Assembly: GCA_947489525.1 (NCBI GenBank)
Contig: CANLDW010000003.1
Location: 248,001-312,000 of the forward strand
Direction: 5' to 3'
DNA: 64,000 nt
From: an uncultured Psychrobacter sp.
GTDB lineage: Bacteria; Pseudomonadota; Gammaproteobacteria; Pseudomonadales; Moraxellaceae
In this document: piece by piece, positions 1,765 to 52,886 of the stretch
Numbering within the stretch: position 1 is the stretch's first letter
Layout: each line of letters starts with the position of its first letter
Notes under the pieces: generated by a model
The model's database searches: none
What the model was told of the DNA's origin: nothing
What the model saw: the letters and a program-made list of their open reading frames with translations, nothing else
Made by a program: the position numbers and the translations under genes

Positions 1765-3489
1765 ATGACCATACCTAAACCAAGTACCGCCAACTCTACT
1801 GGTACAAACAACTCGCTCAACTCTCATCATACCCCAGTATCCAAACCCTTTATGAAGCGCGGCTTACTATCTGTAGCCGTGGCGAGTTGCCTGCTATTAG
1901 TCGGCTGTGGAGATGATGATACAGAGGTGACTTTCAACGATGTCAATAGCGCGGAGCCGACTGAGGTTGAGACGATCAATACGTTTACTAGTAACCAAAT
2001 AAATGCACTAGTCGGTACTAATAACGCAGCTATACCCGAGGCTGAATGCGACGTAGTCGTAGAAAAAGTCAGCTATCAAACCGTAGGGGCAGCAGGGGAA
2101 TCTACGAACGCCACTGCCGCCCTCATGCTGCCACGCGGTGACGACGATGATTGCCAAGGCGATCGTCCTGTGCTCCTCTATGCGCATGGTACCACAACCG
2201 ATAAGAGCTACGACTTTAGCCAAGTCGGAAATGCGCAAAACTCAGCAGTTGGTGAAGCGACCTCAGTTGCGGCGAACTTTGCCGCGCAAGGCTATATTGT
2301 GGTTGCGCCTAACTACGCCGGCTACGATGAGTCAGAACTTGATTATCATCCTTACCTCGTTGCTGAGCAGCAATCTGCTGATATGATAGATGCTCTCGAT
2401 AGTGCGCGCGCAGCTATTAGTGAGCAGCGCCGTGCAAATAACACCAATTACTCAAACATTGGTGATTCAGGCGAGCTATTTATCAGTGGCTATTCGCAAG
2501 GCGGACATGTGGCGATGGCAACAGCGCGCGCCTTGGAGCAGCAAAACCAACCTGTGACTGCTATAGCGCCGCTGTCAGGACCTTATGCTTTAGCGGCTTT
2601 TGGGGATTTCATCTTTGCAGGTAATGTCAATCTTGGCGCAACTCGATTTGCGCCATTACTAGCGACAGGTCTACAAGAAAAATATAATGTCTATCGCAAT
2701 ACCTCAGAGATATTTACACCCAATTATGCCAACACTCAGCTACCGAGCTTATCAAGCTTTGATGATTTAGTTGCGGCTAATCAATTACCTCAGTTCGCTT
2801 TGTTTGAGCGCACACCGCAGAATAATCCAACGCTTGATATGTTGCCGCCCCCCGTAGTGCCTTTTGCTTCTCTTGGGTTTGACAATACTGATTATCTGAT
2901 TAGAACTGATTTTCGTACCGCCTACGTCGCTGATGCGCTGCGAAACCCTGATAGTTTAATTGCGCAAACAGGTGTATTGCCGGCAGCTAATCCACAAAAT
3001 GCTTTGCGCCAAGCACTCAAAGATAATGATCTGCGCGGTTATGTGCCGACGATGCCAACGCTTTTGTGCGGTGGTAATCAAGACCCAACCGTATATTATG
3101 ATCTAAACACAGGTTCTATGGCTGCTATATTGCGACAAGTTAGTATGCAAAATCCCCAAGCCAATCTTAATATTACGGTTTTAGATGTTGATGCTACCAA
3201 CGCCAGTAGTCGTCCAAATCAGCAAACCTTTAGTATTATTGGCAGTGCGTCCACTAATGACTGGGACGCAAATAGCGTCGTAGCTGATGTTCAAACTAGG
3301 TTTGCAGGCGCTCTGCAACAAGTGGGTCAACGTGCAGCAAATCAAGTTATCGCTAATGGTGGCACTCAAGCGCAAGCTGCACAGGCTGCCGCTGGGGCGG
3401 TACTCGCTAACTATCACGGTGGTCTGGTAAGCCCAGCGTGCCTGCAAGCGACGCGCGAGTTCTTTGAGCAAGATTTTGATCGCTCATAG
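1765..3489 (+). CDS. Secreted alpha/beta-hydrolase (lipase-like) lipoprotein
   Basis: A probable exported esterase or lipase anchored as a lipoprotein. From the ATG at 1765 (AAGGAT 7 bases upstream) the protein is 574 residues. A signal sequence 'MKRGLLSVAVASCLLLVGC' ends in a lipobox, preceded by an unusually long 29-residue polar N-region. The alpha/beta-hydrolase core shows an oxyanion-type 'YAHGTTTD', the nucleophile elbow 'GYSQGGH', a likely acid in 'CGGNQDPTVYYD' and a likely base in 'NYHGGLVSP'. This order fits the secretory lipase (LIP) type. Downstream is a terminator and then gyrA, so it seems monocistronic. The ORF-track start at 1720 has no ribosome site; 1852 would be a minimal start at the signal peptide itself but also lacks one. 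Substrate is not deducible. Confidence 0.75.
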   Translation: MTIPKPSTANSTGTNNSLNSHHTPVSKPFMKRGLLSVAVASCLLLVGCGDDDTEVTFNDVNSAEPTEVETINTFTSNQINALVGTNNAAIPEAECDVVVEKVSYQTVGAAGESTNATAALMLPRGDDDDCQGDRPVLLYAHGTTTDKSYDFSQVGNAQNSAVGEATSVAANFAAQGYIVVAPNYAGYDESELDYHPYLVAEQQSADMIDALDSARAAISEQRRANNTNYSNIGDSGELFISGYSQGGHVAMATARALEQQNQPVTAIAPLSGPYALAAFGDFIFAGNVNLGATRFAPLLATGLQEKYNVYRNTSEIFTPNYANTQLPSLSSFDDLVAANQLPQFALFERTPQNNPTLDMLPPPVVPFASLGFDNTDYLIRTDFRTAYVADALRNPDSLIAQTGVLPAANPQNALRQALKDNDLRGYVPTMPTLLCGGNQDPTVYYDLNTGSMAAILRQVSMQNPQANLNITVLDVDATNASSRPNQQTFSIIGSASTNDWDANSVVADVQTRFAGALQQVGQRAANQVIANGGTQAQAAQAAAGAVLANYHGGLVSPACLQATREFFEQDFDRS

Positions 3490-10237: not shown

Positions 10238-10397
10238 TATAGTCAATTTGAAATAAAATCGATACGCTAATATTACCAGTGCTACTGGTATAAATTTTAC
10301 TTGCGTGCTGTGTCGTTGCAGCCAGAGGCTGCGCAACCCATGTTTTAAAAAAAGCATCCCAGCAGCACTGTATCGGTTTTACAGTGATTCAACTATA
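10238..10397 (+). repeat. MITE-like interspersed repeat, copy 1 (about 160 bp)
   Basis: The element begins TATAGTCAATTTGAAATAAAA and ends with CGGTTTTACAGTGATTCAACTATA in shortened form; its ends are imperfect inverted repeats of about 28 bases starting TATAGT. Inside, CAGTGCTACTGG near the left end is mirrored by a degenerate CAGCAGCACTG near the right end, so the whole unit can fold back. It encodes no protein. A second, clearly related copy lies inverted at 51064-51210. It sits between the convergent genes rnz and the DUF815 ATPase, a position where insertion does little harm and where the fold could also stop transcription. Confidence 0.8.
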
Positions 10398-48605: not shown

Positions 48606-48656
48606 GCAAAAAGCGTAGCTCCTTTATATCAACAAATAATATAAAGCGGCTACGCT
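48606..48656 (-). terminator. Terminator hairpin downstream of the secreted repeat protein
   Basis: On the minus strand AAGCGTAGCCGCTTTATAT pairs with ATATAAAGGAGCTACGCTT, a stem of about 19 positions with one two-base mismatch, followed by TTTTGC. It stands about 80 bases past the stop of the gene at 48733. Confidence 0.75.
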
Positions 48657-48732
48657 TGTGATATCAATCTTGCTTTAAATATAATGTATCTGTTTTATTT
48701 AAAATTGACTATATAACATCTTTGCATAGACA

Positions 48733-51063: not shown

Positions 51064-51210
51064 TATAGTTGATTCACTTTAAAACCGATGCAGTGCTACT
51101 GGAATAAATTTTGCGTAGCCTCTGGAGTGCTAAGCGCACAGCAAGCAAGGAAAATTTGTACCAGTAGCACGGTATTATTAACGTATCGATTTTATTTCGT
51201 ATTGACTATA
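51064..51210 (-). repeat. MITE-like interspersed repeat, copy 2 (about 147 bp, inverted)
   Basis: Its reverse complement starts TATAGTCAATACGAAATAAA and continues with CGATACGTTAATAATACC, matching copy 1 at 10238-10397 along its length with a few substitutions and a small central length difference. The ends are inverted repeats starting TATAGT, and inside CAGTGCTACTGG mirrors CCAGTAGCACGG. It carries no protein. Its right end lies five bases from the stop codon of the LplT-like gene. Confidence 0.85.
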
Positions 51211-51215
51211 TTATT

Positions 51216-52556
51216 TTATTGCTTGCTCTCAAAATCATCTTGACTGGTCTGAATAACAGCGTGTTTAACGTGTTTATTAAGTTTGTTATACAAAAACAGT
51301 CCAAAAACGATGTTAAGTAAACCCGTTACTAAAAACAGCTGCGGTAGACTCAGTGCCAAAGCGTTAAGTAGGACGATCGCAAAGATTGCTGAGGTCACCA
51401 TAAATATTGCATTAAAAATATTGTTAGCACCAACGATACGCGCGCGGTGGCTCTTAGGTGCATAAGCCTGCATAGAGGCATATAAAGGCACAATGTATAA
51501 ACCGCCGCTAAAGCCTAAAAAGAACAAATCAGCAAAGACGCGCCAGCTACCAGTGACTGCAAAGATATCACTGATACCTAGTAACTGCGCGGTGCTCGTG
51601 TCAACTTGCAAACTTGATAAGGAGAAATACAAGTCAATGGCAAAAATACTCAAGCCTGCTATGCCAAAGGGTAATAGTTTTAAGCTTACCTGATTTTTAG
51701 TCAAGCTTTTACACAAGAGTGACCCAATTGAGACGCCAACCGAAAATAAAGTTAGCAAAAAAATAACCACTGATTCATCACCGTGCAAGATAACTTTGCT
51801 AAATTCAGGCGTCTGCGTCAAAAAGGTAGCCCCGTAAAACCAAAACCAGCTATTACCTAAGATGACAAAGAATAAAAATGGCAAGGAGTACAAATAGCGC
51901 ACGGTTGCCATACTGGTCGTAAAGATGTTCCAGTTGACCTTGAGATCAGGCTGCATGGCTGGCATCACGGGGATGAAGCGAGCAGCCAAATAGCCAAGTA
52001 CAGCCACCGTTAGGACTGACGCACTTATCCAGTACAGCGACTGTGGCAGCTGGGTAAGCACCCCAGCGATGATCATGCCGAGTAGAATAGCCAAAGACGT
52101 ACCCATCTGAAACAGACCGTTGGCACCTACTAACTCATTTTCTTTCATGGCTTGTGGCAAATAAGCGTACTTAATCGGACCAAAAAAGGTTGAGTGCGTA
52201 CCCATCAAGAATAACGCGACAAACAATAACGGATACCACTCAAATACGAAACCGACAGCCGCGATCGTCATAATGACAATCTCAAGAATTTTTATAAAAC
52301 GGGTTAATTTAGATTTTTCAAACTTATCTGCCAGCTGTCCTGCTAAGGCTGAGAACAAAAAATAAGGCAAAATAAATAGCATGGCGGCCAAGTTATTTAA
52401 GATGCTGACTTCAACGCCAAGCTGACTGGCTGCAGTATAGGTCAGAACTAAGATGAGCGCTTGCTTAAAAACATTATCGTTAAAAGCCCCTAAGAACTGC
52501 GTAAAGAACATGGCACTAAAACGGCGATGCTTAAATAACTGAAACTGATTAGCCAT
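51216..52556 (-). CDS. MFS transporter, LplT-like (lysophospholipid transporter group)
   Basis: A 12-span major-facilitator protein. The N-terminus 'RFSAMFFTQFLGAFNDNVFKQALIL' matches the LplT/Aas group, in which LplT moves lysophospholipids across the inner membrane for re-acylation. 'FGPIKYAYLPQAMKENELVGANGLF' is another conserved stretch of this group. From the ATG at 52556 (AGGA six bases upstream) it is 446 residues; the ORF-track start 35 codons upstream is not supported. No acyltransferase domain is fused and no aas-like gene is adjacent, so lysophospholipid as substrate is only an inference. A MITE-like repeat abuts the stop. Confidence 0.78.
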   Translation of the reverse strand: MANQFQLFKHRRFSAMFFTQFLGAFNDNVFKQALILVLTYTAASQLGVEVSILNNLAAMLFILPYFLFSALAGQLADKFEKSKLTRFIKILEIVIMTIAAVGFVFEWYPLLFVALFLMGTHSTFFGPIKYAYLPQAMKENELVGANGLFQMGTSLAILLGMIIAGVLTQLPQSLYWISASVLTVAVLGYLAARFIPVMPAMQPDLKVNWNIFTTSMATVRYLYSLPFLFFVILGNSWFWFYGATFLTQTPEFSKVILHGDESVVIFLLTLFSVGVSIGSLLCKSLTKNQVSLKLLPFGIAGLSIFAIDLYFSLSSLQVDTSTAQLLGISDIFAVTGSWRVFADLFFLGFSGGLYIVPLYASMQAYAPKSHRARIVGANNIFNAIFMVTSAIFAIVLLNALALSLPQLFLVTGLLNIVFGLFLYNKLNKHVKHAVIQTSQDDFESKQ

Positions 52557-52886
52557 GAAAAATCCTACAGGTAGAGTACTTAAAAGATGAGAGTAATGTA
52601 AAAGCGAGCAGCTTTGGTTATACGTACTGCTCGCTTTAAACACTATTGTCAACGGTATCAAAAACCTAGCGCATTATAAGGTGGGTTTTAGCAAAGTTAC
52701 GTCGTATAATAGCAAGCCGGCGCCAAAAATACATGAGTGTGATGCTATGATTTAAGAATTAACTAAGTTATGATTTGTAAATTCTACAGTCACCCCTTTT
52801 TATACAATAGGTACACTCACCACTTCAGACTGGCTTGATCATTGTCAGTGATTTTGTTGTTGTAAGAGGATAGGAAGTCAGTACAC

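Follow-up and report, generated by a model that had tools for sequence, protein, structure and literature searches.

The non-coding repeat at positions 10238-10397 of the window, the 64,000-nucleotide stretch of Psychrobacter DNA analysed here, raises the question of what kind of element it is and which enzyme could have moved it. An earlier note had described it as a non-autonomous transposable element and had matched it to the reverse complement of 51064-51210. Our analysis shows that the repeat is a real and well-delimited mobile element of an ordinary kind, a bacterial MITE without its own transposase. The two window copies align from end to end at exactly the positions proposed, with approximately 77% identity over 162 columns, and differ chiefly in an internal stretch of some 14 bp, the 10238 copy measuring 160 bp and the 51064 copy 147 bp. 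Neither contains an ORF of 80 or more amino acids, in keeping with the non-coding character and the size of 147-160 bp first ascribed to them.

Both copies belong to what we call type A, elements of 138-162 bp with imperfect terminal inverted repeats of 28-30 bp that read TATAGTYRAT..TAAAAYCGATAC. A search of the window with the terminal pattern TATAGTYRATNNNNNNTAAAAYCGATAC, allowing up to three mismatches, returned five matches where 100 dinucleotide shuffles gave an expectation of none, so that the pattern is no product of chance. Copy 1 (10238-10397, plus strand, the outer TA dinucleotides included) lies between convergent genes, 20 bp past a stop codon; its left terminal repeat TATAGTCAATTTGAAATAAAATCGATAC occupies 10238-10265 on the plus strand, its right terminal repeat TATAGTTGAATCACTGTAAAACCGATAC occupies 10370-10397 on the minus strand, and the inner palindrome TACCAGTGCTACTGGTA (10274-10290, plus strand) forms one arm of its nested inverted repeat. 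Copy 2 (51064-51210, minus strand) follows an MFS-type gene of the minus strand (51216-52661) at 5 bp from its stop codon, with its left terminal repeat at 51183-51210 on the minus strand and its right terminal repeat at 51064-51091 on the plus strand. The mirrored inner sequence that had been noticed is evident in this copy as an inner inverted repeat spanning 51088-51175, whose 25-nt arms (51088-51112 and 51151-51175) are 84% complementary. An isolated terminal repeat, belonging to a related subfamily and corresponding to a type B left end, is found at 48686-48713 on the minus strand with no recognisable partner end and is probably a relic; a strong hairpin, AAGCGTAGCTCCTTTATAT / ATATAAAGCGGCTACGCTT, adjoins it at 48611-48657.

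The description of a two-copy element proved to be an undercount, as the genome holds dozens. A whole-genome search recovered about 30 full or near-full matches together with many partial ones, a further copy with 88% identity lying just beyond the window (G000:C3:246704-246849), and two terminal-repeat searches of the genome gave 36 and 102 matches with none in the reversed control. The 102 matches include types A, B and C and a TTGATCC group. Type B elements are about 160 bp long and share 79% identity with type A over 150 bp. Type C elements are 107 bp long, with at least 21 matches among those listed and a mean identity of 92% over the seven distinct copies compared; no match between types C and A was obtained by BLASTN. 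In the stretches of this genome that were examined, 22 of the 26 scored A-like copies carry the core in one orientation, while in the other four it is inverted between the inner repeats. Cores inverted within ends that keep their orientation were observed in L024, L025, L026 (from 1501) and L045 (1650-1798), which suggests recombination or template switching within the element.

The copies are sharply bordered, reading TATAGT...ACTATA between unrelated flanks. The proposed preference for a TA target is supported by two pairs of filled and empty sites, in both of which TA is exactly duplicated, the elements concerned being relatives of the two window copies. In the first pair (L039) a 107-bp type C element is nested within an A-like element, the flanks of which, when joined via a single TA, run without a gap across the junction in alignment with the uninterrupted copy L019. 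In the second a 144-bp element is present in genome G042, while the orthologous site in G004 lacks it and has one TA only. For the window copies themselves the relatives compared are too distant to provide exact empty sites, and the evidence comes from the spacing of flanking genes. At the 10238 locus 232 bp separate the gene pair in this genome, whereas in 27 of 29 relatives the two genes are 11-165 bp apart with no element between them; the remaining two (G034 and G002; L121 and L133) have elements between these genes. The gap at the 51064 locus measures 396 bp in this genome. In 28 of the 29 relatives it is 110-280 bp, and in the one left, where it is 367 bp, it holds an element-like pair of ends. 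The sharp borders, unrelated flanks, TA duplications and element-free orthologous sites, together with the IS630 elements with ends of the same type described below, uphold the reading as a non-autonomous transposable element. Neither outcome that the earlier note had named as contrary, a total of just two copies or conserved RNA genes at fixed loci, was observed.

The same observations bear on a rival explanation, in which structured RNA genes or regulatory elements, conserved at fixed loci, resemble transposons only through their inverted repeats. Predicted RNA folds of the element do surpass those of shuffled sequences (z -3.8 to -5.8), some compensatory change is seen in 7 of the 24 pairs of the consensus fold, and for many copies a stop codon is no more than about 100 bp away. 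Against this, insertion sites vary between species, the borders are exact with TA duplications, the consensus fold of 31 copies is weak (-5.45 kcal/mol), no Rfam family was matched, and neighbouring genes are oriented almost at random, 24 facing the element with their 3' ends and 19 with their 5' ends, so that we regard this explanation as very unlikely. An Rfam scan of the window at the gathering threshold returned tRNA only, covariation across the element copies is weak, and promoter and terminator scans of the element were near chance or uninformative. The copies show no clear preference for the 3' or the 5' ends of genes, and a selected role in affecting neighbours is unsupported by gene orientation, promoter scans or covariation. 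The outer and inner inverted repeats would nevertheless allow a transcript to form a long hairpin, which may have an effect on neighbouring mRNAs.

For the mobile MITE, the earlier suggestion that the transposase is encoded elsewhere is supported by full-length IS630-family elements in the genus that have the same kind of ends. Complete elements in the relatives are 908-920 bp long, and their TATAGT ends, of 28-30 bp, are built like those of the MITE. Their orfA matches HTH_Tnp_IS630 (E 8e-16) and orfB matches both DDE_3 (E 3.5e-33) and the NCBIfam IS630 transposase (E 4e-34); the matches to PF01710, PF13358 and NF033545 are all above curated cut-offs, which places the partner transposase in the IS630 family. 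In intact elements the two frames overlap at a conserved C-A8-G run. Similarity between MITE and IS is limited to the ends: the left repeat of copy 1 (10238-10265) has 82% identity with nucleotides 1-28 of a 912-bp IS630 element (L073), and nucleotides 131-160 of this copy have 83% identity with nucleotides 883-912 of the same element. Beyond the common TATAGT, type A ends are more similar to those of the 912-bp group than shuffled sequences are (best pairs p ~0.0005-0.001, from 2000 shuffles with many pairs compared). We also considered whether the 107-bp subfamily is paired one to one with the 920-bp IS group, and rejected the idea because the left end of the 107-bp elements is closest to an end of the 912-bp group. 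IS630 elements on Acinetobacter, Piscirickettsia and Moellerella plasmids appear to end in TATAG(T/C) as well, and the motif thus seems common to a wider IS630 group.

Within the genome under study, a single IS630-type gene is bounded by such ends (L051, G000:C3, ~408.4-409.4 kb), and it is the only DDE_3 gene above cut-off. The second catalytic Asp of its transposase is replaced by Asn (VIVMNNARFHK), the orfA frame is truncated and one end reads CATAGT, and to judge from these features the copy is degraded and looks dead. It sits between two related membrane-protein-like ORFs. Because the sole DDE_3 gene found is degraded, the MITE copies of this genome may now be immobile, bearing in mind that in an assembly of 17 contigs a multi-copy IS could be missing at contig breaks.

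We therefore favour, with a probability of about 0.93, a MITE that is recognised through its terminal repeats by the IS630-family (Tc1/mariner-type) transposases of Psychrobacter and inserted at a duplicated TA. The sequences make it very probable that the element is mobilised in trans at TA sites in the manner proposed for RUP and IS630-Spn1. A transposase of the 908-920 bp group would recognise, or would once have recognised, the 28-30 bp ends, excise the MITE and reinsert it into a TA dinucleotide, which would be duplicated on insertion. Action in trans is an inference, as is the cut-and-paste chemistry, which is expected by analogy with ISY100 (PMC2170065).

Searches for the MITE gave matches in 58 of 71 congeners, whereas all 45 genomes from outside the genus lacked them. 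The partner transposase occurs in 57 of the same 71 congeners, and 79 of the 80 best-scoring loci for this transposase are named Psychrobacter records, which places the host in this genus. Eight congeners have the MITE with no transposase detected and seven the transposase with no MITE; joint absence, in 6 of 72 genomes, is more frequent than expected (Fisher p 0.015, kinship ignored). A contig labelled Planctomycetia bacterium TMED53 (L251) carries a Psychrobacter-type IS630 element and probably represents contamination of that genome bin. A search of phage records for the element found nothing, and in plasmids only partial copies were found. Among these, one and the same partial related repeat is present at 3001-3080 in the Psychrobacter plasmid pYP14c (L053) and the Acinetobacter variabilis plasmid pAV_175-4 (L054), adjoining a cation diffusion facilitator gene in both, which suggests transfer between the two genera.

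On pYP14c this partial repeat also adjoins an IS5-family gene, an arrangement that could be taken to favour mobilisation by another transposase family, such as the IS5-type enzyme suggested for the Correia elements of Neisseria via IS1106. The same partial repeat is found on the Acinetobacter plasmid with no neighbouring IS5 gene, however, and the TA duplication and matching ends indicate IS630 rather than an IS5-type enzyme; we consider mobilisation by another family extremely improbable.

Correia elements (CREE/NEMIS) are themselves a possible identity for the repeat. They are high-copy, hairpin-forming sequences of 104-157 bp, with ends of about 26 bp starting TATAG[CT] and a TA duplication (PMC2649163, PMC3898611), and the Psychrobacter element might be a member of the family that arrived by horizontal transfer. 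It agrees with them in size class, in its TA target and in its TATAG[CT] ends, and the resemblance of its right end to the Correia end TATAGTGGATTAAATTTAAACCGGTACGG extends beyond TATAGT (p ~0.0005, as one of many comparisons). Three Correia elements taken from Neisseria-type prophage contigs and compared by BLASTN with types A, B and C nevertheless gave only short end-like matches, none longer than 39 bp, and no common core, and the main form of the Correia end, TATAG[CT]GGATTAAATTTAAACCGGTAC, had no match in this genome with up to three mismatches. With a different core, and with the main Correia ends absent from the genome, Correia identity is rejected, only the slightest probability being left to it. 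Correia ends were likewise missing from a sample of 369 genomes of the class, among which the Neisseria DNA uptake sequence, when searched for, revealed no clear Neisseria genome. One genome (G367:C28:25055-33132) has five Neisseria-type uptake sequences within 8 kb and one elsewhere; this cluster was possibly acquired horizontally. The inner inverted repeat AAATTTATACCAGT (10274-10300 in the window, and in type B copies) is similar to AAATTTAAACCAGTACGG, which forms the inner half of the Correia end; for type B the identity is 86% over 22 bp, in what is a very small comparison.

No earlier description of this MITE was found in the literature searched, most of it outside subscription journals, where the family is apparently undescribed. 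Since one genus offers both a MITE family and the IS that is probably its partner, along with nested and empty sites, cross-mobilisation becomes directly testable. The Correia-like ends, target and size also supply a concrete candidate enzyme family for the old question of the Correia transposase. According to the literature the mobilising mechanism of Correia elements is undetermined, with IS1106 having been suggested (PMC2649163, PMC3898611). Given the marked likeness in ends, TA target, size and hairpin, an IS630-type enzyme becomes a candidate for that role, and an IS630-type origin for Correia elements is a reasonable hypothesis. More tentatively, and as something less likely than not, the Psychrobacter MITEs and Correia elements could belong as separate branches to a single class of MITEs that insert at TA and depend on IS630-type transposases with TATAG(T/C) ends, the Correia enzyme being of the IS630 family and since lost from, or still unrecognised in, Neisseria.

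Four known systems invite comparison with the Psychrobacter MITE. MITEAba12, found in Acinetobacter and other Moraxellaceae, is a 113-bp element with 16-bp ends GGCTTTGTTGCACAAA, a 9-bp target duplication and ISAba12 as its partner (PMC6382973); it is a MITE of the same bacterial family, yet unrelated to that of Psychrobacter. The mechanistic model is ISY100 (IS630/Tc1/mariner), whose transposase binds to the ends of the element, makes the cuts and integrates at a TA, which is duplicated in the process (PMC2170065), although ISY100 is autonomous, cyanobacterial and has a single transposase gene, whereas the Psychrobacter partners have two overlapping frames. RUP of Streptococcus pneumoniae is non-coding, about 107 bp long, present in high copy number and directed to a TA target, and its ends resemble those of IS630-Spn1, so that an IS630-family IS has been proposed as the source of its transposase (PMC2229807). 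The Psychrobacter element is likewise a non-coding, high-copy MITE with a TA target and IS630-type ends, but it differs in host, end sequence, core and the presence of several subfamilies, and has terminal repeats of 28-30 bp plus an inner inverted repeat where RUP ends are listed as 9 bp. With Correia elements it shares size, ends, TA duplication, hairpin and high copy number, while its core is unrelated, the details of its ends differ and, for the Psychrobacter MITE, IS630 partners have been found.
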